Shown: piece by piece, positions 25,329 through 57,892 of the stretch | Numbering within the stretch: the stretch's first letter is position 1 | Layout of the letters: each line of letters begins with the position of its first letter | NCBI GenBank assembly: GCA_943736015.1 | Contig: OX031072.1 | Span: forward strand, 320,001 to 384,000 | Length of the DNA stretch: 64,000 bases | Reading direction: 5' to 3' | Source: Tridacna crocea | Taxonomy: Eukaryota; Mollusca; Bivalvia; Cardiida; Cardiidae | Translations under genes and position numbers: made by a program | The notes under the pieces: model-generated | Told to the model about the DNA's origin: nothing | What the model saw: only the letters and a program-made list of their open reading frames with translations | Databases searched by the model: none

Positions 25329-25545
25329 CAGATAGGCCAACGCAGACAACAGAAAGGTATAATAGTTCCACAGTACATAGCTCTACAGCCCACTTGCCAA
25401 AACAGACAACAGAGTGTAGTGATGGTTTCAAGGGCCAATTTGCCATTCTAGTTGTACTGAATTCACTGATTTTATTGATCTGTGTATTCATATGTGTACT
25501 TATCTATGTGTCAGGGAAGTGCACGCGAGTTCAGGAGCTCTCGAA
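25329..25545 (+). CDS. TNFR exon 3: Ser/Thr-rich stalk and transmembrane helix
   Basis: A 217-nt exon. It completes a codon begun in exon 2 and ends with two bases of a codon finished in exon 4. It encodes about 36 residues rich in Thr and Ser (TQTTERYNSST, HSSTAHL), typical of an O-glycosylated stalk, then a hydrophobic helix (FAILVVLNSLILLICVFICV) followed by basic residues (SGKCTR). This orientation fits a type I receptor. The acceptor is a tandem NAGNAG (tttgcag|cag|at), so either AG keeps frame with one codon gained or lost. The donor is aa|gtaaga. The phase match with exon 2 supports direct joining, though another exon in the 4.5 kb intron cannot be excluded. Confidence 0.85.
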
Positions 25546-26579: not shown

Positions 26580-26622
26580 ATGTTCCTGTTGTCCGAACTG
26601 CCGTAATAGGCCCGCAAATCCT
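26580..26622 (+). CDS. TNFR exon 4: cysteine-rich juxtamembrane segment
   Basis: A 43-nt exon (one base plus 14 codons) that completes the AAA codon started in exon 3 and ends in phase 0. It encodes CSCCPNCRNRPANP. The acceptor (taaatccag) has a weak pyrimidine tract; the donor is ct|gtaagc. Four cysteines in seven residues just inside the membrane could be lipidation sites or a metal-binding cluster; that is speculation. Support comes mainly from phase, since it bridges the phase-2 end of exon 3 to the phase-0 repeat exons. Confidence 0.7.
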
Positions 26623-27590: not shown

Positions 27591-27641
27591 GGAGTGAACG
27601 CTTCTCCACTGAATACAAACAGTGAAAGTGGCAGGCTATCG
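27591..27641 (+). CDS. TNFR tail exon, repeat copy 1 (51 nt)
   Basis: Flanked by atttattacag and |gtaaagtga. It encodes 17 residues, GVNASPLNTNSESGRLS, with no carried bases at either end, so it can be spliced in or skipped without changing frame. It is the only copy with Leu at residue 7; all others have Pro. I do not recognise the peptide as a known domain. It is Ser/Asn-rich and predicted disordered by composition. Confidence 0.8.
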
Positions 27642-28361
27642 GTAAAGTGACTTCTTTTTTAGAGATTCAGAAATTACAGCTTTAACCCTTTGCCTTACGA
27701 AAACATGTTTTAATGACTTTAAGAGAGAAAGCCTTTAAAACCATTGTAGAGAAATCATATTCACGTTACCAGCATTTTCCTTTTTCCACCATGTTCACTA
27801 CCCTTTCGGTTAAAAATGCCATCAATTCAGCCACTCTAAATTTGTAGTTTTCAAGGAGTCTAAAGTTTTCTTGTATGTAAATATTCAAACCTTTTGTCAC
27901 CTTGAATCATGTTTCATAAAACTGAAATAATTTTACTCCAAAATATTTGGTATTAAAATGAAATTACAGTTAAAGCAAGTCTAAGAAAAAAGTTGATCTT
28001 TGTTATTCTTCAGTCCTACAGAGATTTATAGTTCTTATAAATGCATTGTGTCCCTGAAAGAAAAAGAAGCGCAAATTGCACTTTCACCCTTGTTAGCAGA
28101 TGAGGTAGTATAAGAAAACAGTTGATATTTGATATTTTCCTGTCCCACATAGATTTATAATTATCATAAATGGATTGTTTCATACAAGGAAAGAAAAAAG
28201 AGCAAAATGCACTGGCATTGTTGGCAGATGAGGTTATAAATACTTATCAGTAATTATAACTCCTTGCTGATAGTCAAACATAGATCAGTTCTACTACATT
28301 ACCTCTTTTATAAACCCTTGAAATCAAAAAAACCCTTGTACCAAATGTGCAGCTGTAATCT

Positions 28362-29431
28362 TTAAAGGGGATTTAGGTTTCTCACATCTCACCAAATTAA
28401 AAAATATATATATCACTGAAAGTTATATGAAAAATCAATACAAATCATCAATAATTATGAATCATAAAATTAGACAAACAATTCTTTTGATGGCATTCCC
28501 TTAAAGGTGGATATTTAGAATTTTCACATCACACCAAATTAAAAAATATATATATCATTGAAATTTATATGAAAAAACAATACAAATCATCAATAATTAA
28601 GAATCATAAAATTACAACAACATTTTTTTTTTTTATGGTTTTCCCTTAAAAGGCTACGTAGCCTCTTAAGCTATTTTTAGATTTCACACCAAAAATCAAT
28701 GAAGTATTGTGGGAATGTCAAGTGACTGGCACGTGACTAATAACGCTTAAATTCCATTATATAACAAACATGTAACAGTTATTTTCCATAATATCTTCTT
28801 CGGACGGTTGTTTGAGACTTTGTCTGTGTTTTCCTGTATTTAAATGAGAGAATTGATAATATAAAATACAACGTGTCTTCCGTTGGTGTCAACCTGGTCC
28901 GTAATAGATCTCTAATTTCTCGTGTTACCGGATTGTTTTCGACTACTGGGGTTTTATGTACGCAAATTAAAAGGCTATCGGAGTATAAGGATGATTCTTT
29001 TGCATTTTTGTAAAATTTTTGTCCCAAAATCTGAAGGGTCACCTTTAAAAGGCTACATACTTCTTTATCTATTTTTACATTTCGCTTTACAAATAAAAAA
29101 CATTGTGGGAATGTTAAGTGACTGGCACGTGACTAATGACGCTTTGAAAATTGCAAAACATAATAAACATGTTATTATTTTCCATAATGTCTTCTTCGGG
29201 CGCTATGTTTGAAGATTCATCTGTGTATTTTTTGGTTTGTAAATGAGCCAGTCGCTCATGTACAGACAGACAGTGTTTCCCGTCGATGTCAACCTGGGCA
29301 GTAGTATATCTCTAATTTCTCATGCTGTCGGATGGTTTATGACAACTATAAGGCTTTGGGAATATAAGGATGATTTTTTTTTTTTGTCCTTTTGTAAAAG
29401 TTCGTCTCAAATTCTGAAGGACCACCTTTAA
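28362..29431 (+). mobile_element. Family K element containing a second family K element
   Basis: Outer copy 28362-29431 is split at its internal cccTTAAaaggctac site by an inner copy (28501-29048) with TTAA at each end. The uninterrupted site is visible at 35040, 43684 and 47824. Confidence 0.85.
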
Positions 29432-29639
29432 AATGTCTATGCATACCGTGAATATTAATAAGTCCGAGATTAGTCATTAAGCCATTAATTCCATATGTTG
29501 CCCCAAAACGGGTTTTCTGCCTAATAAGCCTTTGAGTCATCAATAAATGATGACTTTAACAGGGGATGTGTTATGGAAGACCACTCCTTCATGCATGGCT
29601 TTGTCCCGATATAAATGTAATACCTGACAACTGCATTAG

Positions 29640-29745
29640 AGAGATATCTCTTAAGCTCAGTGGTTATGGTATTGGTCTTTTTAGTCTCGAAAAACGAGTA
29701 TATTACTTTGTCCGCATGGGTTCGAATTGCGACAGTTGCAGTTTT
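29640..29745 (+). repeat. tRNA-like (SINE-derived) segment, array copies
   Basis: A-box-like agctcagtggttatggta and B-box gggttcgaattgc, about 64 bases apart (longer than a normal tRNA), without a credible acceptor stem. Repeated at about 35667, 44309 and 48453. The same-length open frames found in all four copies on the minus strand are side effects of recent duplication. Confidence 0.5.
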
Positions 29746-30803
29746 TATTTCAGCTATACATTTGTTCATTGGTTTCTTTTGTAAAGGAGTTTGTTCGTAA
29801 GACATATGAGAAATTACTTGCCAGCATTTATGACTGCTTGCGGATAGTCAAATGGGTCAACTATGCTGTATAACCCGTCTATCATAAGCCCCTAGACTCA
29901 AAAGCTCCTGCACTCAATGTACAGCTGAAAACTTTAGAATTTTTATGTATATTGTGATTATTATGCTCAAATAAGTCTGAAATCATTTTGACAAAGGAAG
30001 GACTAGTAATTGCTCATTTTGTCAATAAGAGTCTGCTACAAAACAGAAATAATTCCATGACAAATGTCAAAGTGGTAGACTGTTACATGGATTGTCAAAA
30101 AAGCCTCATGTTAGATGCCCTGAAATTACAACTCAGTTAGCAAAGAACTTTATTTACTGTAAACTTGTCAGGTTACAATCCACTTAAATCAGCATATTAT
30201 TATCACTTTATCAGTACTTAAGCAATGCTACAAAGAAGTCATCATAAAATTTGATAACCTAGGATGATATTCCCAGATTATTATTAAACTGTTAGGTCTG
30301 GTGGGGTAACTTGAATATTACTGACACTTTACAACACAATGTTCAGTTTAAACGACCCTAGAGGAAAATGTTTTTTTTTTTTACTACTTACCAAACGACA
30401 TAATTTAATGCTAGTCCAAATATAAAGCATTTGCAGACGACAATATTAATGTGAATTAAACACTAAACACTAAAATGGGAAGGGTAGAAAACATGGTGGG
30501 AAAAGGAGAAAATGCTGAAAAGAAGAAAATGATGGTTACTAGCATTTTATTCTCCTTTACCACTATGTTTTCAAAAAGCTTTTTTCCCCAGGACCCTTTA
30601 AAGGCTTCTTTGAGCGGTCAAGGGTTAAAATGTTGTAGAAAATGAAGGAAACACTTGTCGTCTTTTCCCCTCAATGTTTCCTACACTCTCAAGAACATAT
30701 ACCATTATTTCAGCCGCATGTAAATTGTCGTCTAATATACTTTCAATTGGGCAAGTCTTGAAACTTTATATATAGCAGTGAGTTGACTACATGTCGCTTT
30801 TTA

Positions 30804-32476
30804 GCTCACCTGAGCACGAAGTGCTCAAGGGGAGCTATTGTGATCGATCAATGTCCGTCGTCCGTCTGTCCGTCCGTCTGTCCGTTCACAATTACTAAAA
30901 AAATCTTCTCCTCCTAAACTAACAATCAGATTTCACTCAAATTTCACAGAAATGATCCCTAGGTGATGCACTTTCAAAATAATTCAAAGATTTTAATTCC
31001 ATGAAGAACTCTGGTTGCCATGGCAACCGAGTGAAAAAACTTTAAAAATCTTCTCCTCCAAAAATGTGAGGGCTAGAGCTTTCATATTTGGCATATAGCA
31101 TCATCTAGTGACCCTCTACCAAAATACTTCAAATCATGGCTGTAGTGTTGAAATTGGCCCTATGTTGTAGGTTCTCGGATTTCACATAGAGATAAAGAAG
31201 GAAATCTTAGAAAATCTTCTTGTCCCAAACTGTAAGGGCGAGAGCTCTCATATTTGGCATGTTGCATCATTTAGTGGACCTCTACTAAAATACTTCAAGT
31301 TATCACCCTAGTGCAGAAATTGGCCCTATGTTGTGGGGTCTTGGATTTCACAAAGAGATAAAGAAGGAAATTTTAGAAAATTTTCTTGTCCCAAACCGTA
31401 AGGGCTAGAACTTTTATATTTGGCAAGCAGCATCATCTAGTGGCCCTCTACCAAAATACTTCAAATTATGGCCCTGGTATGAAAATTAAACCTATGTTGT
31501 TGGTCTTGGATTACACATAGAGAAAAGAAAGGAAATCTTTTAATACCTTCTGGTCCAAATGGTAATGGCCAGAGCTTTCATATTTGGCATGTAGCATCAT
31601 CTAGTGGCCCTCTACCAAAATACTTCAAATTATGTCCCTGATGTAAAGAATTGGCGCTATGTTGTGGGTCTCGGATTTCACATAGTGATAAAGAAGGAAA
31701 TCTTTAGAAACCTCTTTGTCCCAAACGGTAATGGCCAGAGCTTTCATATTTGGCATGTAGCATCATCTAGTGGCCCTCTACCAACATACCTCAAATTATG
31801 GCCCTAGTGTTGAAAATGGCCCTGTGTTGTGGGTTCTTGGATTTCACGTAGCGATAAAGAAGGAAATTTTAGAAAATCTTCTTTTCCCAAACCATAAGGG
31901 CTAGAGCTTTCATATTTGGCATGTATCATCATCTAGTGGCCCACTACCAAAATACTTCAAATTATGGTCCTGGTGTGAAAGTTAGCCCTATGTTGTTTGT
32001 CTCAGATTTCACAAAGAGATAAAGAGGGAAATCTTTAAAAGTCTTTGTCTCAATAAAATCTCACATGAGTCTGCATTTAATGCTTGTTCGGAATATAACT
32101 TTGTCATCTCAAGTCAGAACAACTTCAAAATTGGTATGCATGTTTGTTGTGATATTACCGAGCACTGTGTTCAAGAACAATAACTCTACCTAGCATTGAT
32201 TTTAAGTAATTCCACTTTGATCTTTATTTTAATAGTATTGTTTGCTTGTCCAGAGTGGAATTTTGAAGTCTCAAGTCAAATTGTTTGTTTCATTGCCTAC
32301 CCTTTGCAACTATTATACCTCCTTTACAACTTGCACTGGAATTGCATTTCTTGCGACAATTTGCCGCTCTTGTTTCATCATCATTAGCCGTTGAACCTCA
32401 GTAATTATGATCTTTGTTGTCGACCTTTGCTGCTTAGTACTCAGGTGAGCAATATAGGACCATCGTGGTCCTCTTG
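30804..32476 (+). mobile_element. GCTCACC-family element inserted in the TNFR array
   Basis: Starts GCTCACCTGAGCACGAAG, then has a GTCCGTC run. Most of the element is about seven diverged tandem copies of a roughly 160-bp unit (gagctttcatatttggca...catctagtgg). It ends with the inverted sequence CTCAGGTGAGC, a small hairpin (ggaccatcgtggtcc) and CTTGTTA. The empty site in other exon units is tcgctttttatttattacag. The flanks differ from it by at most a 3-bp ambiguous overlap (TTA), so no firm target duplication is present. It carries no protein-coding capacity. Confidence 0.85.
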
Positions 32477-32489
32477 TTATTTATTGCAG

Positions 32490-32540
32490 GGAGTGAAAGC
32501 TTCTCCACCGAATACAAACAGTGTAAGTGGCAGGCTATCG
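32490..32540 (+). CDS. TNFR tail exon, repeat copy 2 (51 nt), internal cryptic donor
   Basis: Encodes GVKASPPNTNSVSGRLS, differing from its neighbours at residues 3 (K for N) and 12 (V for E). The GAA-to-GTA change at residue 12 creates gtaagt inside the exon, a textbook donor located 33 nt in. Using it would shorten the exon to 11 codons and still keep frame. The acceptor is ttattgcag. It lies directly downstream of the 1.67 kb GCTCACC-family insertion, whose 3' end is within about 14 bases of the exon. Confidence 0.75.
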
Positions 32541-33041
32541 GTAAAGTGACTTCTTTTTTAGAGATTCAGAAATTACAGCTTTAACCCTTTGCCTTTCGAA
32601 AACATGTTTTAATGACTTTAAGAGAGAAAGCCTTTAAATTCAGCCACTCTAAATTTGTAGTTTGCAAAAGCTTCCAGTTTGGAGGAGTCTAAAATTTTCT
32701 TGTTTTGTAAATATTTAAACATTTTGTCACCTTGAATCATGTTTCATAAAATTGAAACAGTTTTACTCCAAAACATTTGATATTAAAATGAAATTACAGT
32801 TAAAGACAGTCTAAGAAAAAAAGTTGATTTTTGTTATTCTCCAGTCCTACAGAGATTTAGAGTTCTCATAAATGAATTTTGTCCCTGAAAAAGAAGTGCA
32901 AATTACACTTTTACCTTGTTAGCAGAATGATGAGGTAGTCTAAGAAAAAAGTTGATATTTGATATTTTCCTGTCCTACAAAGATTTGTAGTTCTCATAAA
33001 TGGATTGAAGGAAGAAGAAGCGCAAAATGCACTTTTACCAT

Positions 33042-33294
33042 CCTCGGATACCCCTGGGTCTCCCTATTTGCTCCGCTACATTGACCCCTGGGACAATTGA
33101 CTAATAAAACTTTGAATCAGCCGCCGAAAATCAATAGGAAACGTCATAGCGTACAGTGCACTCGCCCATCACAAAATGATGATGGAACCAATGAAAAGCT
33201 AGCATTCGGCCAGCGGCAAAGCGAGGGAAATTCAATTAATTGTCCCAGGGGTCGATGTGGCGTAGCAAATAGGGAGACCCCGGGGTATCTGTGG
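33042..33294. mobile_element. 253-bp inverted-repeat element with 15-bp flanking repeats
   Basis: Ends pair over about 55 bp (gatacccctgggtctcccta / tagggagaccccggggtatc). The flanks ATGCACTTTTACCAT occur at 33027-33041 and 33295-33309 but only once in paralogous units (for example 37178), so this is a true 15-bp target duplication. No coding capacity; superfamily unknown. Confidence 0.85.
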
Positions 33295-34114
33295 ATGCAC
33301 TTTTACCATTGTTGGTAGATGTCAGCGATTATAACTCCTTGTTTAAATTTATGCATAGATCAGCTATACTATATTATCTCTATCACAAGCCCCTGAACTC
33401 AAAAGCTCCTCTACCCAATGTACAGCTGTATGCTTTAAAATGTCTTATGTATACTGTATATGTAAATACGTCCGAGATTAGCCATTGAGCTTCAATCAGC
33501 ATGTGCATGATTATCAGTATTTAAGCAATGCTACAAAGAAGTCATCATGTAATTTGATTATTATTAAACGGAATTTGGTAGTTCCACCGTTAGGTCTGGT
33601 GGGGTAACTTGAATATTACTGACACTTTACAACACAATGTTCAGTTTAAACGACCCTAGAGGAATATTTTTTTTTTTTACTACTTACTAAACGACATAAT
33701 TTAAGGCTAGCCCAAATATAAAGCATTTGCAGACGACAATATTAATGTGAATTAAACATTAAAATGGGATTTGGGAAGGGTAGAAAACATGAAGGGAAAA
33801 ATAGAAGATCAGTGCTGAAAAGAAGAAACTGATGATTACCAGTATTTTTTTCTCCTTTACCACAAAGTTTTCAAAAAGCTTTTTCCTCAGGATGGTGAAA
33901 AGGCTTTTTTGAGCGGTAAAGGGTTAAAACATTGTGGAAGATGAAGAAAACACTTGTCGTCTTTTCCCCTCAATGTTTCCTACACTCTCAAGATCATATA
34001 TACCATTATTTAACCCGCTTGTAAATTGTTGTTTGATATACTTTCAATTGGGCAAGTATTGAAACTTTATATATAGCAGTGAGTTAACTACATGTCGCTT
34101 TTTATTCATTACAG

Positions 34115-34165
34115 GGAGTGAACGCTTCTCCACCGAATACAAACAGTGAAAGTGGCAGGCTATCG
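34115..34165 (+). CDS. TNFR tail exon, repeat copy 3 (51 nt)
   Basis: Phase 0/0 exon encoding GVNASPPNTNSESGRLS. Acceptor ttattcattacag, donor |gtaaag. It keeps Gly at residue 14 like copies 1 and 2, whereas copies 4-8 carry Asp. The distance to copy 4 is 2742 bp, the long-interval type. Confidence 0.8.
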
Positions 34166-34902
34166 GTAAAGTGACTTCTTCTTTAGAGATTCAGAAATTA
34201 CAGCTTTAACCCTTTGCCTTACGAAAACATGTTTTAATGACTTTAAGAGAGAAAGCCTTTAAAACCATTGTAGAGAAATCATATTCAGGTTACCAGCATT
34301 TTCCTTTTTCCACAATGTTCACTACCCTTTCAGTTAAAAATGCCATCGATTCAGCCACTCTAAATTTGTAGTTTGCAAAAGCTTCCAGTTTGGAGGAGTC
34401 TAAAAATGTTTTTTTTTTTTAAATATTCAAAGCATTTGTCACTTTGAATCATGTTTCATAAAATTGAAATAGTTTTACTCCAAAATATTTGATATTAAAA
34501 TTAAATTACAGTTAAAGGAAGTCTAAGAAAAAAGTTGATCTTTGTTATTCTCCAGTCCTACAGAGATTTATAGTTCTCATAAATGAATTCTGTCCCTGAA
34601 GGAAAAAGAAGCACAAATTGCACTTTCACCCTTCTTGGCAGATGAGGTAGTCTAAGAAAACAGTTGATATTTGATATTTTCCTGTCCTACAGAGATTTAT
34701 AATTATCATAAATGGATTGTTTCATACAAGGAAAGAAAAAAGAGCAAAATGCACTGGCATTGTTGGCAGATGAGGTTATAAATACTTATCAGTAATTATA
34801 ACTCCTTGCTGATAGTCAAACATAGATCAGTTTTACTACATTACCTCTTTTATAAACCCCTGAAATCAAAAAACCCTTGTACCAAATGTGCAGCTGTAAC
34901 CT

Positions 34903-35458
34903 TTAAAGGGGATTTAGGTTTCTCACATCTCACCAAATTAAAGAATATATATATCACTGAAATTTATATGAAAAATCAATACAAATCATCAATAATTATG
35001 AATCATAAAATTACACAAACAATTCTTTCGATGGCATTCCCTTAAAAGGCTACGTAGCCTCTTAAACTATTTTAAGATTTCGCTCCACAAATTAAAAAAA
35101 AAGCGGTGATTGTGGGCATGTTAAGTGATTGCCACATGACTAATGACGCTTTGAAATTTGCATAACATAACAAACATGTTATTATTTTCCGTAATGTCTT
35201 CTTCGGGCGCGATGTTTGAGGATTAATTTGTGTAGTTTTGGTATGTAAATGAGCCAGATGCTCATGTACAAACAGACCGTGGTTCCCGTCGATGTCAACC
35301 TGGGCTGTATTAAATCTCAAATTTCTCATGTTGTCGGATGGTTTTTGATTACTGGGCTTTTTTGTATGACAATTATAAGGCCTGGGGAATATAAGGATCG
35401 ATATTTTTTTTTGTCCTTTTGTAAAATTTCGTGCCAAAGTCTGAAGGGTCACCTTTAA
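34903..35458 (+). mobile_element. Family K element in array long unit 2
   Basis: TTAA ends, same orientation and insertion point as in the other long units, so it was present before the unit was amplified. Confidence 0.8.
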
Positions 35459-36856
35459 AATGTCTATGCATACAGTGAATATTAATAAGTCCAAGATTAG
35501 TCATTAAGCCATTAATCCCATATGTTGCCCCAAAACGGGTTTTCTGCCTAATAAGCCTTTGAGTCATCAATAAATGATGACTTTAACAGGGGATGTGTTA
35601 TGGAAGACCACTCCTTCATGCATGGCTTTGTCCCGATATAAATGCAATACCTGACAACTGCATTAGGGAGATATCTCTTAAGCTCAGTGGTTATGGTATT
35701 GGTCTTTATAGTCTCGAAAAACGAGTATATTACTTTGTCCGCATGGGTTCGAATTGCGACAGTTGCAGTTTTTATTTCAGCTATACATTTGTTCATTGGT
35801 TTCTTTTGTAAAGGAGTTTGTTCGTAAGACATTATGAGAAATTACTTGCCAGCATTTATGACTGCTTGCGGATAGTCAAATGGGTCAACTATGCTGTATA
35901 ACCCGTCTATCATAAGCCCCTAGACTCAAAAGCTCCTGCACTCAATGTACAGCTGAAAACTTAAGAATTTTTATGTATATTGTGATTATTATGCTCAAAT
36001 AAGTCTGAAATCATTTTGACAAAGGAAGGACTAGTAATTGCTCATTTTGTCAATAAGAGTCTGCTACAAAACAGAAATAATTCCATGACAAATGTCAAAG
36101 TGGTAGACTGTTACATGGATTGTCAAAAAAGCCTCATGTTAGATGCCCTGAAATTACAACTCAGTTAGCAAAGAACTTTATTTACTGTAAACTTGTCAGG
36201 TTACAATCCACTTAAATCAGCATATTATTATCACTTTATCAGTACTTAAGCAATGCTACAAAGAAGTCATCATAAAATTTGATAACCTAGGATGATATTC
36301 CCAGATTATTATTAAACGGAATTTGGTAGTTCCACTGTTAGGTCTGGTGGGGTAACTTGAATATTACTGACACTTTACAACACAATGTTCAGTTTAAACG
36401 ACCTTAGAGGAAAATGTTTTTTTTTACTACTTACCAGACGACATATTTTAAGGCTAGCCCAAATATAAAGCATTTGCTGACGACAAATATTAGTGTGAAT
36501 TAAACACTAAAATGGGATTTGGGAAGGGTAGAAAACATGAAGGGAAAAGGAGAAGATGCTGAAAAGAAGAAAATGATGGTTACTAGCATTTTTTTCTCCT
36601 TTCCCACAAAGTTTTCAAAAAGCTTTTTCCTCAGGATAGTGAAAAGGCTTTTTTGAGCGGTAAAGGGTTAAAACATTGTGGAAGATGAAGAAAACACTTG
36701 TCGTCTTTTCCCCTCAATGTTTCCTACACTCTCAAGATCATATACCATTATTTAACCCGCTTGTAAATTGTCGTTTGATATACTTTCAATTGGGCAAGTA
36801 TTGATACTTTATATATAGCAATGAGTTAACTACATGTCGCTTTTTATTTATTACAG

Positions 36857-36907
36857 GGAGTGAACGCTTCTCCACCGAATACAAACAGTGAAAGTGACAG
36901 GCTTTCG
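36857..36907 (+). CDS. TNFR tail exon, repeat copy 4 (51 nt)
   Basis: Encodes GVNASPPNTNSESDRLS with the CTTTCG ending shared by copies 5, 6 and 8. Splice sites are intact. The intron that follows lost about 300 bp relative to its paralogues (junction near 37128) and later received the LTR retrotransposon. Confidence 0.8.
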
Positions 36908-37471
36908 GTAAAGTGACTTCTTTTTTAGAGATTCAGAAATTACAGTTTTAACCCTTTGCCCTACGAAAACATGTTTTAATGACTTTAAGAGTGAAAGCCT
37001 TTAAAATCATTGTAGAGAAATCATATCCAGGTTGCCAGCATGTTCCTTTTTCCACGATGTTCTCTACCCTTTCAGTTGAAAATGCCGTCAATTCAGCCAC
37101 TCTAAATTTGTAGTTTGCAAAAGCTCCAGTCTACAAAGATTTGTAGTTCTCATAAATGGATTGAAGGAAAAAGAAGCGCAAAATGCACTTTTACCATTGT
37201 TGGTAGATGTCAGTGATTATAACTCCTTGTTTAAAGTTATGCATAGATCAGCTATACTATATTATCTCTATCACAAGCCCCTGAACTCAAAAGCTCCTCT
37301 ACCCAGCTGTATGCTTTAAAATGTCTTATGTATACTGTATATGTAAATACGTCCGAGATTAGCTATTGAGCTTCAATCAGCATGTGATTATCAGTATTTA
37401 AGCAATGCTACAAAGAAGTCATCATGTAATTTGATTATTTAACGGAATTTGGTAGTTCCACTGTTAGGTCT

Positions 37472-37655
37472 TGTAGTGTATTGATTTAGTGATATTAAGA
37501 CTACTTTAGGCATAGAAATTGTAACCTTTTCCTATTTGTATGTTCTGCACATGCGCAGACAGATTAAATTCGATGGCTGACCAACATGGTTGTTGTTTCC
37601 TTGTACAATGGTTAAATCCAGTTCATCCTACTCATGTGGTCTACGAAACATTATA
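37472..37655 (+). repeat. 5' LTR
   Basis: 184 bp, from TGTAGTG to ACATTATA. It carries 13 extra bases (tattgatttagtg) near its start compared with the 3' LTR, bounded by TAGTG repeats, so either this LTR gained or the 3' LTR lost one repeat interval. Confidence 0.93.
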
Positions 37656-37658
37656 AAT

Positions 37659-37669
37659 TGGCGACAAGG
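37659..37669 (+). promoter_or_regulatory. Primer-binding site
   Basis: TGGCGACAAGG starts three bases after the 5' LTR. TGG pairs with the CCA end of a tRNA, as expected for minus-strand priming. I cannot name the tRNA from the sequence. Confidence 0.7.
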
Positions 37670-37693
37670 ATAACTTTATTTGTTTTTCTGACG

Positions 37694-38971
37694 ATGGCTG
37701 CATTGATATCGACAGACGTTTCATCGATAGGTTGTTTTGACTGCCAAAACCAAACCGGAATTGCTGCTCGTTGGAAGAGATGGATACGTGCATTTGACTT
37801 GTATGCACATGGCAAAGGAATTGTCAACGCGGAACAGAAAAGGTCTTTACTTCTTCATACGGCGGGGATGGACGTTCAAGATATCTTTTATACACTTACA
37901 TTGGATGGAGAGGAAGGAGATGATGCTTTAGACATCGCTAAGAAGACCTTGGAAAACTATTTTACCCCACAGTCGAATGTTCCATTTGAGAGACATGAAT
38001 TCAGGGCAATGGCTCAAGAGCCTACAGAAATGATTGAACAGTTCGTTACACGATTGAGATTGACAGCAGAAACATGTGAATTCGATAACATGGATGAACA
38101 GATTCGTGATCAAATTATCGAAAAGTGTGCATCTAATCTATTACGGAGGAAACTGCTTGAGAAAGGAAGAACATTAAATCTTCAGCAACTCCGAGATATA
38201 GCAAGAGCTTTGGAAGACTCTGAAAGACAAGCAAGGTCCATAAAGGGAATTTGTGAAAATGTGAATAACATTTCAGTTGAGAAGTTTTCCCATAACAAAC
38301 CCAAAAGAAAGGGAAAAGGGAAACAAGAAAAATTGAAGCATGATGTCACCTGTTATAGTTGTGGTTATGAGGGCCATAAATCTAAAGATCCAAATTGTCC
38401 AGCAAAGGGAAAGAAATGTTGAAAATGTGGAAAAATAGGTCATTTTGAGGCAAAATGTAGGACGAAAATGGACAGAAAGAAAAGTGACAATCAGGTAAAA
38501 CAAGTTAGTCAGATTGAAACAGAAGACTATGCTTTTATCATAAGTCGGGTTACAGGCTCTGACAAATCGAATTGGACCATTGACATAGAATTGGGAGGTG
38601 TAATATTACCCATGATAGTCGATTCGGGAGCTAGTTGCAATGTTATTGGTCATGAGAACTGGGAGTTCCTGAAGTTGAAAAACATAGATTGTACCTCTTC
38701 AAAGGACAGGTTAAGCAAGTTATATGCTTACGGTTCACTGACGCCTTTACCTATTGCGGGTACTTTTACTACAGACGTCAAAGCCAATGGTATTAACCTA
38801 CATGTATATGACATACATTTCAAGGTGATTGAGGGTCAAGGACAATCATTACTAGGTCGTGATACTGCCATGAAGTTGAACTTACTGAGATTAGGCCCAG
38901 AACAGAGTGAGATCAATACAGTTTACAACCCGTCAAGTTCCATTTTAGGTGAATTTCCAGAATTGACTTAG
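37694..38971 (+). pseudogene. gag-protease part of the Ty3/Gypsy element, two stop codons
   Basis: I chose the ATG at 37694 (MAALIST) because the upstream in-frame start codon at 37634 lies inside the LTR. Gag reads through a capsid-like helical region to a zinc knuckle at 38351-38398 (C-x2-C-x4-H-x6-C). A second knuckle at 38417-38458 (C-x2-C-x4-H-x4-C) is broken by TGA at 38420-38422, and the same frame continues without other damage. The aspartic protease active site DSGA is at 38621-38632. A second stop, TAG at 38969-38971, again in the same frame, precedes the polymerase. Either stop could be a single point change. Readthrough of the TGA is conceivable, but its position inside a zinc knuckle makes a disabling mutation more likely. 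Confidence 0.88.
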
Positions 38972-41584
38972 GGATTCGGGAAGTTGAAAGACTTTAAACT
39001 CAAGATTCCAATAAATAAAACAGTAGATCCTGTTATACAGCCGATTAGACGTGTTCCTTACCAGATTCGTGCAAAGCTAGAAAAAAAACTCGATGAGCTT
39101 GAATCATTAGACATTACTGAGAAAGTGGAGGGTCCCACTGACTGGTTAAGCCCTGTGGTTGTTATACCTAAGAACAATAATGATGTACGCTTATGTGTTG
39201 ATATGCGATTAGCAAACAAGGCAGTTAAACGAGAGCGTTATCTTATTCCTACTGTGGATGAAGTAATCCAAGAGCTTAACAAGAGTAGTGTTTTCAGTCA
39301 AATTGATTTGAAAATGGGATATTTTCAAATTGAGCTGGATGGAAACTCTCGAAACATTACTACTTTCGGAATGCACAAGGGTCCATATCGATACAAAAGA
39401 TTGATTATGGGAATTTCTTGCGCTCCGGAAATGTACCAGAAATGTCTGCAACAAATATTGCAAGAATGTGAAGGTGCTCATAATATCTTAGATGATATTA
39501 TCATTCATGGTTCCACTCAGTCTGAACATGATGAAAGGTTAAAAAATGTTCTACATGTGTTGAAAGACAAAGGTTTGACTGTTAATCCTTTGAAATGTGA
39601 ATTTAACATGTCAAAGTTAGCATGTATGGGTCATATTTTAAGTGCTAGAGGTATTTCCCCATCAGAGGCCAAAGTGAAGTCTGTTATTGAAGCACGAGAA
39701 CCTAAGACTGTTTCAGAAGTAAAGAGTTTTTTGGGTCTCGTAACATACAGTTCCAGGTACATTCCTGACTTTTCCACTGTATCAGAACCTCTACGCAGAC
39801 TGACAAGGAAAAATGCATCTTTTCATTGGGGTTCAGAGCAACAAGAATCTTTTGATAAGTTGAAACTTTTATTGTCTAATGCTGAAACATTAGGTTATTT
39901 TGATGTAAATGCTGAAACCCAAGTTATTTCAGATGCTTCACCAGTTGGGCTAGGTGCTGTACTTGTACAAAAGCAGAATAATGAGCATAGTGTCATAGCA
40001 TATGTATCCAGAAGCTTATCTGATATTGAAAGAAGATGTTCTCAGACTGAAAAAGAGGTGTTAGGTCTTGTTTGGGCTTGCGAAAGGTTTCATCCATATA
40101 TCTACGGTGCAGAGTTTGAGTTGGTGACCGATCACAAACCCTTGGAATTTATCTTTTCTCCACGCTCCAAGCCTAGTGCCCGTATTGAAAGATGGGTTTT
40201 ACGTATGCAACCCTACACATACACTGTACGCTATTTTAAGGGTAGGTCAAATATTGCCGACGCATTATCAAGGCTATTGCCTGAGACGGAGAATGATGAG
40301 TCTATTCTAAATATAGAACAAGCTTACATAAGATTCCTGGCAGAAAATGCATCTTCATCTGCCATGACGACTCGTGAAATTGAAAGAGCTTCAGATGAAG
40401 ACTCTGAATTACGAAGTGTAAGAGATTGTCTTTTACATGGAAGCTGGTATCAGTTAGAGAACAAGCAGTTCCTGACTATTCGATCAGAATTAAGTGCTAT
40501 AGGCAAATTAGTATTGCGGGGTACCCGTATAGTCATACCCCAAAGTCTTCGTAGTCGTACGTTAGAATTAGCACACGAGGGTCATCCTGGTATTGTAAAC
40601 ATGAAGAAAACCTTACATACAAAGGTATGGTGGCCAAATATCAACAATGATGTTGAGAAGTACTGTAAAAGTTGTCATGATTGTCAATTAGTGTCACAAT
40701 TTACCAAACCTGAACCGATGATACGTACTGAAATGCCAACAGGTCCATGGCAATATTTAGCAGCAGACATGCTTGGTCCTTTACCCAGTAATGAATATAT
40801 TTTAGTTGTAATTGACTACTATAGCAGATATTTCAAAATAGAAATTCTGAAGTCGACAACCTCAAGCAGCATTATTCAAGCTATGAATAAGTTTTTTTCA
40901 ATACATGGATTGCCAAATTTCTTAAGAACAGATAATGCTACAAATTTCACAAGTGATGTTTTCCAATCTTTTTTGAAAAGTAATGGTATTCGCCATGTTC
41001 GAAATACACCTTTATGGCCGCAGGCTAATGGTGAAGTAAAGAGACAAAATCGTTCCTTATTGAAACGTATTCGCATAGCACATTCAAGTGGTAGAGACTG
41101 GAAAACTGATTTACAAACATATTTGTTAGCATATAGATCAACACCACGTAATACCACTGGAATGAGTCCAGCAGAACTGTTATTTGGTAGAAAGATAAAG
41201 ACTAAAATTCCTGATATTGAAAATTTAAGGAATGAAAATATTGAAGTCAGAGATCGAGATTCAGAGAAGAAGGGTGAAGGTAAATTATATGCAGACATGA
41301 AAAGAAATGCAGTACAGAGTAATTTGAAAATTGGTGACAAGGTACATGTATTGGTAAGACAGGACAGACAGAATAAGCTGTCTACCCCGTTTTATCCTAA
41401 AACTTTCACTGTTGTGGACAAAAAAGGGAATAGTGTCCAAATTGAATCACAAGCAGGTTCATTGTACAAACGTAATATTACTCATGTAAAAAAGTATGTT
41501 GATCGGGACAACTCAAAAGTTCAAGTTTCACTGATCAAGAGATTGTGGTGCCATATCAGGAGATATTTCCTTCTGAGGGAGTGA
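38972..41584 (+). pseudogene. pol (reverse transcriptase, RNase H, integrase) of the Ty3/Gypsy element
   Basis: Continues the gag-protease frame. Reverse transcriptase shows the FSQIDLKMGYFQI segment and the active-site box NILDD at 39482-39496. RNase H has ISDAS (Asp codon 39932) and TDHKPLEF near 40127. Integrase has an HHCC zinc domain (AHEGHPG to CHDCQ, about 40570-40690), then catalytic Asp codons at 40766 and 40931. At the spacing where the family has the catalytic Glu, just after NGEV, this copy has Lys (codon 41039-41041), so the integrase is expected to be inactive. The frame ends at 41584, and the tail continues in another frame. Confidence 0.92.
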
Positions 41585-41757
41585 TATCACATGATTTGGA
41601 ACCAAGTTCTCCGAAACAAAAAGAAGGATTAGGGAGATTAGTGGAAACGCCTAAGTCTAAGTCGAGTTCCATTCAAACAAATGAATCGACTGTAGCAAGT
41701 CGTCCTGTGAGAGCAAGGAAATTGCCTGAAAAATTAAGAGATTTTGTACTCGAGTGA
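41521..41757 (+). pseudogene. Frameshifted C-terminal tail of integrase
   Basis: In the frame one base off from pol, the sequence reads on through SRPVRARKLPEKLRDFVLE to a TGA at 41755. A basic RPVRxRxxPxxLxD-like end is common at integrase C-termini in this superfamily. The shift lies around 41515-41545 and corresponds to one missing base in this copy. A natural frameshift cannot be excluded, but two stops and a lost catalytic residue favour decay. Confidence 0.75.
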
Positions 41758-42060
41758 GTTGAGATTTACCGGTACATGTAAGATTTTTCTGTTTGAAACA
41801 CAGCTTAAAGTTTTTGCCATGTTATAGTCAAAGGTATTGACTAGAGGGTTTTGTTATGATTATCTAGGTAAGATTTATTAAGTACATTTATCTAGAAGTA
41901 CCAATTTTACCAATGTAAGTATTACTTTGGCATTCCGAAATTGCAGTAGAAATCCTTGGGAAAGACTTGTATAGTTAAGGAATATATAATCCAGTGTATA
42001 AATATTTTCTGTGAATTACTCAGATAAAATACTAATAGTGTATTACAATAAAGCCACTCT

Positions 42061-42074
42061 GAGAAAAGAAGGGA
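42061..42074 (+). promoter_or_regulatory. Polypurine tract
   Basis: gagaaaagaaggga, all purines, directly abuts the 3' LTR. This is the expected primer site for plus-strand DNA synthesis. Confidence 0.85.
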
Positions 42075-42245
42075 TGTAGTGATATTAAGACTACTTTAGG
42101 CATAGAAATTGTAACCTTTTCCTATTTGTATGTTCTGCACATGTGCAGACAGATTAAATTCGATGACTGACCAACATGGTTGTCGTTTCCTTGTACAATG
42201 GTTAAATCCAGTTCATCCTACTCATGTGGTCTACGAAACATTATA
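42075..42245 (+). repeat. 3' LTR
   Basis: 171 bp with the same ends as the 5' LTR. Three substitutions separate the two copies (in acatgYgcag, cgatgRctg and tgttgtY-type positions). Confidence 0.93.
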
Positions 42246-42759
42246 GGTCTGGTGGGGTAACTTGAATATTACTGACACTTTACAACACAATGTTCAGTTT
42301 AAACGACCCTAGAGGAATATTCTTTTTATTACTACTTACCAAACAACACAATTTAAGGCTAGCCCAAATATAAAGCATTTGCAGACGACAATATTAATGT
42401 GAATTAAACATTAAAATGGGATTTGGGAAGGGTAGAAAACATTAAGGGAAAAGGAGAAGATGCTGAAAAGAAGAAAATGATGGTTACCAGCATTTTTTCT
42501 CCTTTCCCACAAAGTTTTCAAAAAGCTTTTTCCTCAGGATGGTGAAAAGGTTTCTTTGAGCGGTAAAGGGTTAAAACATTGTGGAAGATGAAGAAAACAC
42601 TTGTCGTCTTTTCCCCTCAATGTTTCCTACACTCTCAAGGTCATATACCATTATTTAACCCGCTTGTAAATTGTCGTTTGATATACTTTCAATTGGGCAA
42701 GTATTGATACTTTTTATATAGCAATGAGTTAACTACATGTCGCTTTTTATTTATTACAG

Positions 42760-42810
42760 GGAGTGAACGCTTCTCCACCGAATACAAACAGTGAAAGTGA
42801 CAGGCTTTCG
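42760..42810 (+). CDS. TNFR tail exon, repeat copy 5 (51 nt)
   Basis: Identical in sequence to copy 4 over the exon. Acceptor ttattacag, donor |gtaaag. It is the first exon copy after the LTR retrotransposon; removing the 4.78 kb insertion brings copies 4 and 5 to the short spacing class. Confidence 0.8.
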
Positions 42811-43545
42811 GTAAAGTGACTTCTTTTTTAGAGATTCAGAAATTACAGTTTTAACCCTTTGCCCTACGAAAACATGTTTTAATGACTTTAAGAGAGAAAG
42901 CCTTTAAAACCATTGTAGAGAAATCATATTCAGGTTACCAGCATTTTCCTTTTTCCAGAATGTTCACTACCCTTTCGGTTAAAAATGCCATCAATTCAGC
43001 CACTCTAAATTTGTAGTTTGCAAAAGCTTCCAGTTTGGAGGAGTCTAAAATTTTCTTGTTTTGTAGATATTTAAACCTTTTGTTACCTTGAATCATGTTT
43101 CATAAAACTGAAATAATTTTACTCCAAAATATTTGATATTAAAATCAAATTACAGTTAAAGGAAGTCTAAGAAAAAAGTTGATCTTTGTTATTCTCCAAT
43201 CCCCCAGAGACTTATAGTTCTCATAAATTAATTGTGTCCCTGAAGGAAAAAGAAGCGCAAATTGCACTTTCACCCTTGTTAGCAGATGAGGTAGTCTAAG
43301 AAAACAGTTGATATTTGATATTTTCCTGTCCTACAGAGATTTATAATTATCATAAATGGATTGTTTCATACAAGGAAAGAAAAAAGAGCAAAATGCACTG
43401 GCATTTTTGGCAGATGAGGTTATAAATACTTATCAGTAATTATAACTCCTTGCTGATAGTCAAACATAGATCAGTTCTACTACATTACCTCTTTTATAAA
43501 CCCCTGAAATCAAAAAACCCTTTACCAAATGTGCAGCTGTAACCT

Positions 43546-44100
43546 TTAAAGGGGATTGAGGTTTCTCACATCTCACCAAATTAAAGAATATATATATCAC
43601 TGAAATTTATATGAAAAATCAATACAAATCATCAATAATTATGAATCATAAAATTACACAAACAATTCTTTCGATGGCATTCCCTTAAAAAGCTACGTAG
43701 CCTCTTAAACTATTTTAAGATTTCGCTCCACAAATTAAAAAAAAGCCGCGATTGTGGGCATGTTAAGTGATTGCCACGTGACTAATGATGCTTTGAAATT
43801 TGCATAACATAACAAACATATTATTATTTTCCATAATGTCTTCTTCGGGCGCGATGTTTGAGGATTAATTTGTGTAGTTTTGGTATGTAAATGAGCCAGA
43901 TGCTCATCTACAAACAGACCGTGTTTCCCGTCGATGTCAACCTGGGCTGTATTAAATCTCAAATTTCTCATGTTGTCGGATGGTTTTTGACTACTGGGGT
44001 TTTTTGTATGACAATTATAAGGCATGGGGAATATAAGGATCGATATTTTTTTTTGTCCTTTTGTAAAATTTCGTGCCAAAGTCTGAAGGGTCACCTTTAA
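43546..44100 (+). mobile_element. Family K element in array long unit 3
   Basis: TTAA at both ends; co-amplified with the exon unit. Confidence 0.8.
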
Positions 44101-45478
44101 AATGTCTATGCATACAGTGAATATTAATAAGTCCAAGATTAGTCATTAAGCCATTTATCCCATATGTTGCCCCAAAACGGGTTTTCTGCCTAATAAGCCT
44201 TTGAGTCATCAATAAATGATGACTTTAACAGGGGATGTGTTATGGAAGACCACTCCTTCATGCATGGCTTTGTCCCGATATAAATGCAATACCTGACAAC
44301 TGCATTAGGGAGATATCTCTTAAGCTCAGTGGTTATGGTATTGGTCTTTTTAGTCTCGAAAAACGAGTATATTATTTTGTCCGCATGGGTTCGAATTGCG
44401 ACAGGTGCGGTTTTTATTTCAGCTATACATTTGTTCATTGGTTTCTTTTGTAAAGGAGTTTGTTCGTAAGACATATGAGAAATTACTTGCCAGCATTTAT
44501 GACTGCTTGCGGATAGTCAAATGGGTCAACTATGCTGTATAACCCGTCTATCATAAGCCCCTAGACTCAAAAGCTCCTGCACTCAATGTACAGCTGAAAA
44601 CTTAAGAATTTTTATGTATATTGTGGTTATTATGCTCAAATAAGTCTGAAATCATTTTGACAAAGGAAGGACTAGTAATTGCTCATTTTGTCAATAAGAG
44701 TCTGCTACAAAACAGAAATAATTCCATGACAAATGTCAAAGTGGTAGACTGTTACATGGATTGTCAAAAAAGCCTCATGTTAGATGCCCTGAAATTACAA
44801 CTCAGTTAGCAAAGAACTTTATTTACTGTAAACTTGTCAGGTTACAATCCACTTAAATCAGCATATTATTATCACTTTATCAGTACTTAAGCAATGCTAC
44901 AAAGAAGTCATCATAAAATTTGATAACCTAGGATGATATTCCCAGATTATTATTAAACTGTTAGGTCTGGTGGGGTAACTTGAATATTACTGACACTTTA
45001 TAACACAATGTTCAGTTTAAATGACCCTAGAGGAAAATGTTTTTTTTTTTCTACTTACCAAACGACATAATTTAAGGCTAGTCCAAATATAAAGCATTTG
45101 CAGACGACAATATTAATGTGAATTAAACACTAAAATGGGATTTGGGAAGGGTAGAAAACATGAAGGGAAAAGGAGAAGATGCTGAAAAGAAGAAAATGAT
45201 GGTTACCAGCATTTTTTCTCCTTTCCCACAAAGTTTTCAAAAAGCTTTTTCCTCAGGATGGTGAAAAGGTTTCTTTGAGCGGTAAAGGGTTAAAACATTG
45301 TGGAAGATGAAGAAAACACTTGTCGTCTTTTCCCCTCAATGTTTCCTACACTCTCAAGATCATATACCATTATTTAACCCGCTTGTAAATTGTTGTTTGA
45401 TATACTTTCAATTGGGCAAGTATTGATACTTTTTATATAGCAATGAGTTAACTACATGTCGCTTTTTATTTATTACAG

Positions 45479-45529
45479 GGAGTGAACGCTTCTCCACCGA
45501 ATACAAACAGTGAAAGTGACAGGCTTTCG
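45479..45529 (+). CDS. TNFR tail exon, repeat copy 6 (51 nt)
   Basis: Same exon sequence as copies 4 and 5 (SESDRLS with CTTTCG ending). Splice sites are intact. The spacing to copy 7 is 1422 bp, the short class with no later insertion, which makes this interval the cleanest representative of the short unit. Confidence 0.8.
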
Positions 45530-46900
45530 GTAAAGTGACTTCTTTTTTAGAGATTCAGAAATTACAGTTTTAACCCTTTGCCCTACGAAAACATGTTTTA
45601 ATGACTTTAAGAGAGAAAGCCTTTAAAATCATTGTAGAGAAATCATATCCAGGTTGCCAGCATGTTCCTTTTTCCACGATGTTCTCTACCCTTTCAGTTG
45701 AAAATGCCGTCAATTCAGCCACTCTAAATTTGTAGTTTGCAATAGCTCCAGTTTGGAGGAGTCTAAAATTTTCTTGTTTTGTAAATATTTAAACATTTTG
45801 TCACCTTGAATCTTGTCTCATAAAATTGAAACAGTTTTACTCCAAAACATTTGATTTTAAAATGAAATTACAGTTAAAGGCTGTCTAAGAAAAAAAGTTG
45901 ATTTTTGTTATTCTCCAGTCCTACACAGATTTAAAGTTCTCATAAATGAATTGTGTCCCTGAAATAGAAGTGCAAATTACACTTTCACCCTTGTTAGCAG
46001 ATGAGGTAGTCTAAGAAAAAAGTTGATATTTGATATTTTCCTGTCCTACAAAGATTTGTAGTTCTCATAAATGGATTGAAGGAAAAAGAAGCACAAAATG
46101 CACTTTTACCATTGTTGGTAGATGTCAGTGATTATAACTCCTTGTTTAAAGTTATGCATAGATCAGCTATACTATATTATCTCTATCACAAGCCCCTGAA
46201 CTCAAAAGCTCCTCTACCCAGCTGTATGCTTTAAAATGTCTTATGTATACTGTATATGTAAATACGTCCGAGATTAGCTATTGAGCTTCAATCAGCATGT
46301 GCATGATTATCAGTATTTAAGCAATGCTACAAAGAAGTCATCATGTAATTTGATTATTAAACGGAATTTGGTAGTTCCACTGTTAGGTCTGGTGGGGTAA
46401 CTTGAATATTACTGACACTTTACAACACAATGTTCAGTTTAAACGACCCTAGAGGAAAATGGTTTCTTTTTACTACTTACCAAACGACATAATTTAAGGC
46501 TAGTCCAAATATAAAGCATTTGCAGACGACAATATTAATGTGAATTAAACACTAAAATGGGATTTGGGAAGGGTAGAAAACATGAAGGGAAAAGGAGAAG
46601 ATGCTGAAAAGAAGAAAATGATGGTGACCAGCATTTTTTCTCCTTTCCCACAAAGTTTTCAAAAAGCTTTTTCCTCAGGATGGTGAAAAGGTTTCTTTGA
46701 GCGGTAAAGGGTTAAAACATTGTGGAAGATGAAGAAAACACTTGTCGTCTTTTCCCCTCAATGTTTCCTACACTCTCAAGATGATATACCATTATTTAAC
46801 CAGCTTATAAATTGTCGTTTGATATACTTTCAATTGGGCAAGTATTGATACTTTATATATAGCAATGAGTTAACTACATGTCGCTTTTTATTTATTACAG

Positions 46901-46951
46901 GGAGTGAACGCTTCTCCACCGAATACAAACAGTGAAAGTGACAGGCTATCG
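46901..46951 (+). CDS. TNFR tail exon, repeat copy 7 (51 nt)
   Basis: Encodes the same 17 residues as copies 4-6 but with CTATCG instead of CTTTCG at the end. It thus combines the Asp-14 codon of the later copies with the codon ending of copies 1-3, which hints at gene conversion or an intermediate in the expansion. Splice sites intact. Confidence 0.8.
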
Positions 46952-47686
46952 GTAAAGTGACTTCTTTTTTAGAGATTCAGAAATTACAGCTTTAACCCTT
47001 TGCCTTACGAAAACATGTTTTAATGACTTTAAGAGAGAAAGCCTTTAAAACCATTGTAGAGAAATCATATTCAGGTTACCAGCATTTTTCTTTTTCCAGA
47101 ATGTTCACTACCCTTTCGGTTAAAAATGCCATCAATTCAGCCACTCTAAATTTGTAGTTTGCAAAAGCTTCCAGTTTGGAGGAGTCTAAAATTTTCTTGT
47201 TTTGTAGATATTTAAACCTTTTGTTACCTTGAATCATGTTTCATAAAACTGAAATAATTTTACTCCAAAATATTTGATATTAAAATTAAATTACAGTTAA
47301 AGGAAGTCTAAGAAAAAAGTTGATCTTTGTTATTCTCCAATCCCCCAGAGACTTATAGTTCTCATAAATTAATTGTGTCCCTGAAGGAAAAAGAAGCGCA
47401 AATTGCACTTTCACCCTTGTTAGCAGATGAGGTAGTCTAAGAAAACAGTTGATATTTGATATTTTCCTGTCCTACAGAGATTTATAATTATCATAAATGG
47501 ATTGTTTCATACAAGGAAAGAAAAAAGAGCAAAATGCACTGGCATTGTTGGCAGATGAGGTTATAAATACTTATCAGTAATTATAACTCCTTGCTGATAG
47601 TCAAACATAGATCAGTTCTACTACATTACCTCTTTTATAAACCCCTGAAATCAAAAAACCCTTGTACTAAATGTGCAGCTGTAACC

Positions 47687-48244
47687 TTTGAAGGGGATTT
47701 AGGTTTCTCACATCTCACCAAATTAAAGAATATATATATCACTGAAATTTATATGAAAAATCAATACAAATCATCAATAATTATGAATCATAAAATTACA
47801 CAAACAATTCTTTCGATGGCATTCCCTTAAAAGGCTACGTAGCCTCTTAAACTATTTTAAGATTTCGCTCCACAAATTAAAAAAAAGCCGCGATTGTGGG
47901 TATGTTAAGTGATTGCCACGTGACTAATGACGCTTTGAAATTTGCATAACATAACAAACTACATTAATTATTTTCCATAATGTCTTCTTCGGGCGCGATG
48001 TTTGAGGATTAATTTGTGTAGTTTTGGTATGTAAATGAGCCAGATGCTCATCTACAAACAGACCGTGTTTCCCGTTGATGTCAACCTGGGCTGTATTAAA
48101 TCTCTAATTTCTCATGTTGTCGGATGGTTTTTGACTACTGGGGTTTTATGTATGACAATTATAAGGCCTGGGGAATATAAGGATAGATATTTTTTTTTGT
48201 CCTTTTGTAAAATTTTGTGCCAAAGTCTGAAGGGTCACCTTTAA
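47687..48244 (+). mobile_element. Family K element in array long unit 4
   Basis: The left TTAA has become TTGA; otherwise like the other co-amplified copies. Confidence 0.75.
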
Positions 48245-49621
48245 AATGTCTATGCATACTGTGAATATTAATAAGTCCGAGATTAGTCATTAAGCCATTA
48301 ATCCCATATGTTGCCCCAAAACGGGTTTTCTGCCTAATAAGCCTTTGAGTCATCAATAAATGATGACTTTAACAGGGGATGTGTTATGGAAGACCACTCC
48401 TTCATGCATGGCTTTGTCCCGATATAAATGTAATACCTGACAACTGCATTAGAGAGATATCTCTTAAGCTCAGTGGTTATGGTATTGGTCTTTTTAGTCT
48501 CGAAAAACGAGTATATTACTTTGTCCGCATGGGTTCGAATTGCGACAGTTGCAGTTTTTATTTCAGCTATACATTTGTTCATTGGTTTCTTTTGTAAAGG
48601 AGTTTGTTCGTAAGACATATGAGAAATTACTTGCCAGCATTTATGACTGCTTGCGGATAGTCAAATGGGTCAACTATGCTGTATAACCCGTCTATCATAA
48701 GCCCCTAGACTCAAAAACTCCTGCACCCAATGTACAGCTGAAAACTTTAGAATTTTTATGTATATTGTGATTATTATGCTCAAATAAGTCTGAAATCATT
48801 TTGACAAAGGAAGGACTAGTATTTGCTCATTTTGTCAATAAGAGTCTGCTACAAAACAGAAATAATTCCATGACAAATGTCAAAGTGGTAGACTGTTACA
48901 TGGATTGTCAAAAAAGCCTCATGTTAGATGCCCTGAAATTACAACTCAGTTAGCAAAGAACTTTATTTACTGTAAACTTGTCAGATTACAATCCACTTAA
49001 ATCAGCATATTATTATCACTTTATCAGTACTTAAGCAATGCTACAAAGAAGTCATCATAAAATTTGATAACCTAGGATGATATTCCCAGATTATTATTAA
49101 ACTGTTAGGTCTGGTGGGGTAACTTGAATATTACTGACACTTTATAACACAATGTTCAGTTTAAATGACCCTAGAGGAAAATGTTTTTTTTTTTTACTAC
49201 TTACCAAACGACATAATTTAAGGCTAGTCCAAATATAAAGCATTTGCAGATGACAATATTAATGTGAATTAAACACTAAAATGGGATTTGGGAAGGGTAG
49301 AAAAGAAGGGAAAAGGAGAAGATGCTGAAAAGAAGAAAATGATGGTTACCAGTATTTTTTCTCCTTTCCCACAAAGTTTTCAAAAAGCTTTTTCCTCAGG
49401 ATGGTGAAAAAGTTTCTTTGAGCGGTAAAGGGTTAAAACATTGTGGAAGATGAAGAAAACACTTGTCGTCTTTTCCCCTCAATGTTTCCTACACTCTCAA
49501 GATCATATACCATTATTTAACCCGCTTGTAAATTGTCGTTTGATATACTTTCAATTGGGCAAGTATTGATACTTTATATATAGCAATGAGTTAACTACAT
49601 GTCGCTTTTTATTTATTACAG

Positions 49622-49672
49622 GGAGTGAACGCTTCTCCACCGAATACAAACAGTGAAAGTGACAGGCTTTCG
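49622..49672 (+). CDS. TNFR tail exon, repeat copy 8 (51 nt)
   Basis: Last intact member of the exon series: SESDRLS, CTTTCG ending, acceptor tttattacag, donor |gtaaag. Phase 0 at both ends, so it can join directly to the 54-nt exon at 57893. Confidence 0.8.
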
Positions 49673-55619: not shown

Positions 55620-55671
55620 GGAAGTGAACACTTCACTACAAGGACATGTCAGAGGAAGTGACAGGATATCG
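55620..55671 (+). pseudogene. Relic ninth copy of the 51-nt TNFR tail exon
   Basis: The sequence ggaagtgaacacttcac...gacaggatatcg aligns to the 51-nt exon and its flanks (tccctttttatttata before, aaagtgactcc after). The acceptor dinucleotide is lost (aactg| in place of tacag|), the donor has become gc, and an extra base disturbs the frame. It is more diverged than copies 1-8, so it is probably an old copy that escaped the recent amplification. Confidence 0.7.
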
Positions 55672-57788: not shown

Positions 57789-57892
57789 CACAGATACCAT
57801 CGTTTGAGCCACAGTTATGTAATTCTCTGCAACAGTTTTCATGTTGGATAAATCTAAAATGTATTCATAGTTAATAACCTTTTTCTATACAG

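Follow-up and report, generated by a model that had tools for sequence, protein, structure and literature searches.

Why would a receptor gene carry the same small exon many times over behind its membrane-spanning segment? The question is raised by a stretch of 64,000 nucleotides (nt) from the bivalve Tridacna crocea (GCA_943736015.1, contig OX031072.1, positions 320,001 to 384,000 of the forward strand; this whole stretch is called the window, and all coordinates below count from its first letter). An earlier reading of the letters, here called the original prediction, had placed in it eight in-phase copies of a 51-nt exon within the cytoplasmic tail of a tumor necrosis factor (TNF) receptor. 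All eight are present on the + strand with intact splice sites, no stop and phase 0/0. The prediction had missed three others, a decayed copy at 55621 and older exons at 57896 and 59301, which, as read from the sequence, bring the family to ten intact members and a dead one. It is a case of tandem exon duplication, a known kind of event, in an unusual place. We take the array to be a real family of cassette exons in the receptor tail, a reading to which we give a probability of roughly 0.6.

The family of 51-nt exons

The eight recent copies, located by alignment and a splice-site scan, lie on the + strand at 27591..27641 (E1, GVNASPLNTNSESGRLS), 32490..32540 (E2, GVKASPPNTNSVSGRLS), 34115..34165 (E3, GVNASPPNTNSESGRLS), 36857..36907 (E4), 42760..42810 (E5), 45479..45529 (E6), 46901..46951 (E7), and 49622..49672 (E8), the last five all encoding GVNASPPNTNSESDRLS. 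Each is 51 nt long, open and in phase 0/0, with AG immediately before it and GTAAAG immediately after. Their common translation is GVNASP[P/L]NTNS[E/V]S[G/D]RLS, with N3K in E2. The residue-changing differences among the copies fall, as had been predicted, at positions 3, 7, 12, and 14; a fifth variable site, a silent change at residue 16, had gone unmentioned. The change of residue 12 from E to V in E2 creates an internal GTAAGT donor after 33 nt, which is in phase and offers a 33-nt alternative encoding an 11-residue unit.

The two older members are O1 (57896..57946, +, EEGMSPQESSSTIIIMP) and O2 (59301..59351, +, EESMSPQESCSTCMNMS). A search of the DNA with an nhmmer profile built from seven copies and the decayed one, in which splice sites were not demanded, gave weak hits at 57878-57965 (E 0.0082) and 59283-59369 (E 0.019), both of which contain in exact register a 51-nt open stretch flanked by AG and GTAAAG; apart from the array, copy 2, and the decayed copy, the next hits had E values of 4 or worse. 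The register was examined again by scoring all 393 windows of the form AG-51-GT on both strands against E8, with the four splice letters omitted. The eight copies (E8 included) lead with 79-87 of 87 positions, followed by 57896 at rank 9 (47/87) and 59301 at rank 10 (46/87), the next window reaching 36; all windows below the eight, O1 and O2 included, have a mean of 23.5 and a standard deviation of 4.1. The windows of this second comparison were picked by their splice letters, whereas the profile hits were not. Tandem CAGCAG acceptors at 57890-57896 and 59295-59301 allow O1 and O2 to be either 51 nt long or, via the first AG, 54 nt, both in phase.

The decayed copy (55621..55671, +) is 75% identical to the array over 593 alignment columns, and its acceptor AG has become TG and its donor GT has become GC. 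Ser5-Pro6 is found in 10/10 intact copies and is absent from this relic. When the exon is considered with its surroundings as a 300-nt repeat family of nine members, seven are 96-100% identical to the reference member, and the remaining two, copy 2 (the upstream flank of which is interrupted) and the member at 55504, are 63-64% identical. That the exon is itself part of a dispersed repeat was considered and rejected: outside the array the exon and its close flanks recur only at 55.5 kb, with fainter traces at 57.9 and 59.3 kb.

The gene thus holds ten neighboring homologous exons of equal length (51 nt) and equal phase (0/0). Because each copy is in phase, splicing it in or out leaves the frame intact, and the claim that any number of copies may be included in frame is borne out by enumeration: of the 1024 combinations that the ten intact exons allow, placed between the preceding phase-0 exon end and the phase-0 tail exon, none contains a stop (0/1024).

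The receptor gene

The exon borders of the host gene were set from sequence and frame. The first exon (19276..19693, +), with the start codon, a signal-peptide-like stretch and the first cysteine-rich domains, ends in phase 1, as does the second (20638..20787, +), which encodes another cysteine-rich domain. A third exon (25329..25545, +) supplies the stalk and the transmembrane helix and ends in phase 2. It is followed by the juxtamembrane exon (26580..26622, +, CSCCPNCRNRPANP), which ends in phase 0, and, beyond the 51-nt family, by a tail exon (59949..60051, +, NPSTPYTDDSHDESDTEPSSTTPLMSNQQAEQSF) that begins in phase 0 and ends in phase 1; the exons at 26580 and 59949 had both been named in the original prediction, and their frames agree with it.

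The assignment to the TNF receptor superfamily, also made in that prediction, holds. The first exon alone matches Pfam TNFR_c6 over 19288-19707 (E 2.5e-07; 31.4 bits against a cut-off of 29.4). The second exon gives a weak match to the same family (E 0.065, below the cut-off) and lies within the matches of the joined protein to solved structures. These comprise 31 distinct sequences in the PDB at E values up to 1, the best being TNFRSF11B (E 6e-19), with TNFRSF6B, TNFRSF1B, and TNFRSF21 strong as well. We conclude from these matches that the gene encodes a TNF receptor superfamily member with cysteine-rich domains. Hydropathy peaks at 3.22 over residues 229-248 of the joined protein, with 2.0 near the N-terminus, and, as a measure taken by itself, points to a single-pass membrane receptor with a signal peptide. 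Like vertebrate TNFRSF11B, TNFRSF6B, TNFRSF1B, and others, the predicted protein has cysteine-rich domains, a signal-peptide-like start, and one transmembrane helix. The 51-nt exons lie 3′ of the transmembrane segment and their products are therefore expected to be cytoplasmic, as had been proposed.

Neither the 3′ end of the gene nor any exon beyond 59949-60051 was found, and Pfam detected no death domain in the scanned part of the translated interval 60052-64000. The SPQE of O1 and O2 fits the TRAF2 pattern; a TRAF-binding motif was nevertheless rejected as functional evidence, since SPQE also occurs in 1040/5000 shuffles of O1. An exact-pattern scan across viral contigs gave no match, and no Rfam family reached its gathering score over 19000-64000.

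Probable growth of the array from an exon-intron dimer

The introns of the array, compared without two insertions, are of two types that alternate. The long ones (E1-E2, E3-E4, E5-E6, and E7-E8) measure 2.67-3.17 kb and match each other over the whole query or almost so (for example, 3167/3174), with 98.3% identity between E5-E6 and E7-E8 and 89.7-96.7% for the other pairs. The short ones (E2-E3, E4-E5, and E6-E7) measure 1.09-1.57 kb; E4-E5 matches E6-E7 over 1089/1089 nt at 96.3%, and E2-E3 matches E6-E7 over 1321/1574 at 95.0% and E4-E5 over 989/1574 at 93.1%. Since a long and a short intron have just 821 to 1342 nt in common (85.4-93.9% identical), the two types differ more by content than by the identity of their common part. 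The eight recent copies are, on this comparison of their introns, an exon-intron dimer repeated four times head to tail, with a period of about 4.14 kb for the newest two units, E5-E6 and E7-E8, which are 97.6% alike across 3984 nt.

This arrangement suggests a history in which a symmetric 51-nt exon of phase 0/0 in the cytoplasmic-tail region was duplicated in tandem several times. Old duplications would have given rise to O1, to O2, and to a common ancestor of array and relic; a pair of exons with their introns, as a dimer of about 4.14 kb, would then have been multiplied to four, with unequal crossing-over among the repeat-rich introns as the probable mechanism. Every unit included would lengthen by 17 residues, among them one Ser-Pro, a probably disordered tail region that separates the distal tail from the membrane. 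A likely substrate for such crossing-over is the foldback repeat of the introns. It is a dispersed element with a core like AATGCTGGTTACCAGCATT that occurs in both orientations over 1-20300, in the introns of the array, and over 55700-59800.

The two insertions left out of the intron comparison are of different kinds. The one at 30804..32477 (no strand assigned; edges uncertain by a few bases) begins near AGCTCACCTGAGCAC, carries an array of six 166-nt tandem copies, and ends about 12 nt before E2, the acceptor of which still reads CAG. The other, inside the E4-E5 intron, is a long terminal repeat (LTR) retrotransposon on the + strand (37483..42245), whose end repeats share 97.7% identity across 173 nt. 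Its gag-like and protease-like stretches fall below the Pfam cut-offs and its reverse transcriptase-RNaseH-integrase region lies above them, all in a single frame broken by two stops.

Possible use of the copies as exons

The splice signals were scored with generic matrices. Seven array acceptors score 10.6, that of E2 9.8, and those of O1 and O2 9.9, compared with 6.9, 7.1, 7.3, and 9.0 for the remaining acceptors in the gene model; the array donors, at 4.4, fall within the 2.1-6.5 of the other non-family donors. The whole window was then scanned for open stretches of 30-200 nt, of a length divisible by three, at thresholds set by the array itself (9.8 for acceptors, 4.4 for donors). The + strand gave 12 candidates (the eight copies, the 33-nt form of E2, O1, O2, and one other) and the − strand one; the other exons of the gene were missed, their acceptors lying below the threshold.

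Several observations weigh against the reading of the array as a family of functional cassette exons. The mean divergence among the eight copies is 0.036 in the exon, which falls between the extremes seen in the near flanks (0.016-0.073, positions −499 to +151; the joined flanks of copy 2 add one doubtful base right before the acceptor), with values up to 0.234 farther downstream. The few differences among the copies are therefore no sign of constraint, because the near intron flanks are about as alike. Between O1 and O2 the exon differs at 9/51 positions and the flanks at 36/346 (p 0.15, gaps omitted; 73% alike with gaps), and seven of the exonic changes alter a residue and two are silent. 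Between the relic and E8 the figures are 13/50 and 59/319 (p 0.25). Conservation as a proof of function was accordingly rejected, the exon being no more conserved than its introns. Nor is it rare for a stretch of this size to stay open: 54/192 flank windows open in the reference are open in all eight copies. In the same flanks (549 overlapping windows of 51 nt, 124 of them free of indels in all copies) the letters AG were kept at 27/42 places and GT at 15/31, and for the O1/O2 pair 24/78 open flank windows are open in both. Since flank windows often stay open, the intactness of the eight recent copies is by itself weak evidence. The joined receptor model scores 28.5 bits for TNFR_c6, slightly below the cut-off, and none of 224 candidate protein relatives of the joined 344-residue model reached E ≤0.01, which says little, as the database may contain no bivalve or other animal proteins. 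Inverted repeats, 32 to 224 nt long (61-81% identical, the shortest around E8), are found in both flanking introns of 7/7 exons tested (for E5, at 42310-43070), E2 being omitted for its interrupted upstream intron. The region of E5 folds with a z-score of −6.86 relative to 20 shuffles. In this fold, and in those of two copies from the intron comparison, the intron before the exon base-pairs with the one after it, which could favor skipping of the exon or its release as circular RNA.

An exon no more conserved than the near introns, and the inverted repeats with their fold, would fit an account in which one or a few copies, perhaps only O1 and O2, are used and the eight recent ones multiplied as passengers of a repeat-rich intron and are mostly skipped. 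That 4/5 variable sites among the eight alter a residue also agrees, by a rule of thumb, with an absence of selection. We judge this account unlikely, if worth serious weight: the acceptors score high in all eight copies, and frame and splice sites have been lost in none. Less probable still is the proposal that these 51 nt were at no time an exon and are just an open stretch between splice-like sites of a repeat-rich intron. Such stretches are common enough, as 139/393 AG-51-GT windows are open in phase 0 (the ten of the family included), and the lack of a homologous protein fits the proposal; yet at about 54% identity the older copies still match in exact register and have preserved length, frame, and splice sites, the phases of the neighboring exons agree, and a scan at the splice scores of the array returns, on the two strands together, only two places unrelated to the family, even if it misses the lower-scoring exons of the gene as well. 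The retention of length, phase, and splice sites by O1, O2, and the array across a divergence of about 46% of the compared positions is the stronger evidence for the cassette-exon reading.

A further account concerns the number of copies. E5-E6 and E7-E8 might be two haplotypes of a single dimer assembled into one contig, in which case the true number would be smaller or would depend on the haplotype. The likeness of these two units, in their long introns and over the whole dimer, is within the range common for haplotypes of highly variable marine animals. The insertions peculiar to the E1-E2 and E4-E5 introns and the lower identity of the other long-intron pairs show that the remaining units stand at loci of their own, and we regard even this partial artefact as improbable.

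If the array is a cassette-exon family, some copies would be spliced into mRNA, in numbers that may vary, and variation in inclusion or in copy number is plausible. The tail may well be disordered, and its length or its count of Ser-Pro sites may affect signaling. A bolder version, in which splicing and copy number give each cell or individual receptors with anywhere from zero to ten units of 17 residues (one Ser-Pro site apiece), so that the tail acts as a ruler that tunes the signal, is in our view doubtful. Were several copies spliced in, an immune-type receptor would change the length of its inner tail in 17-residue steps while ligand binding stayed untouched; one could then ask if signal strength in the TNF receptor family depends on how far the distal tail stands from the membrane or on how many Ser-Pro sites there are. 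Diverged old copies, a dead one, and a recent amplification of dimers also stand side by side in this gene and show an exon array at several stages.

Known systems and other elements of the window

No TNF receptor with a tandem exon array in its tail was among the papers that literature searches listed, most subscription papers being outside their reach. The short tandem repeats of TRAIL-R3 lie outside the cell, in its stalk. In LPA, the repeat unit of kringle IV type 2 is a block of exon plus intron. The array resembles it in that units were multiplied in phase, and head to tail with their introns (four dimers), within one gene; it differs in that the unit here codes for 17 residues of the inner tail of a receptor. 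The number of LPA repeats influences isoform size (PMC12776774). Tandem duplicated exons, often spliced in a mutually exclusive manner, are homologous neighbors of equal phase (PMC9741552), and a molluscan example is the oyster alternative oxidase, in which a tandem duplicated exon is reported to be alternatively spliced (PMC5589949). The present family departs from the usual case in having ten in-phase copies, eight of them near-equal, with long introns and with no forced choice of one seen here. The micro-exon genes of schistosomes contain very small symmetrical exons spliced in many sets (PMC4350168). They consist mostly of such exons across the coding region, whereas here a single segment of a receptor is affected, the family adding at most 170 residues to the 276 encoded by the ordinary exons before it. 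Oysters are reported to possess numerous TNF receptor genes, with and without a death domain (PMC4346834); the accessible portions of PMC8917759 and PMC3308963 contain nothing on exon arrays.

Pieces of a mariner-like transposase lie on the minus strand at 53463-54458, with helix-turn-helix and DDE matches in Pfam that are all below the cut-off. Tandem repeats occupy 22952-23728 (unit 156 nt), 52873-53260 (147 nt), and 61773-62330 (157 nt), the last two with similar consensus units. Finally, stretches within 52536-55234 and 61437-62977, both 3′ of the array, are repeated in unchanged order with 88-89% identity and mark another old duplication.

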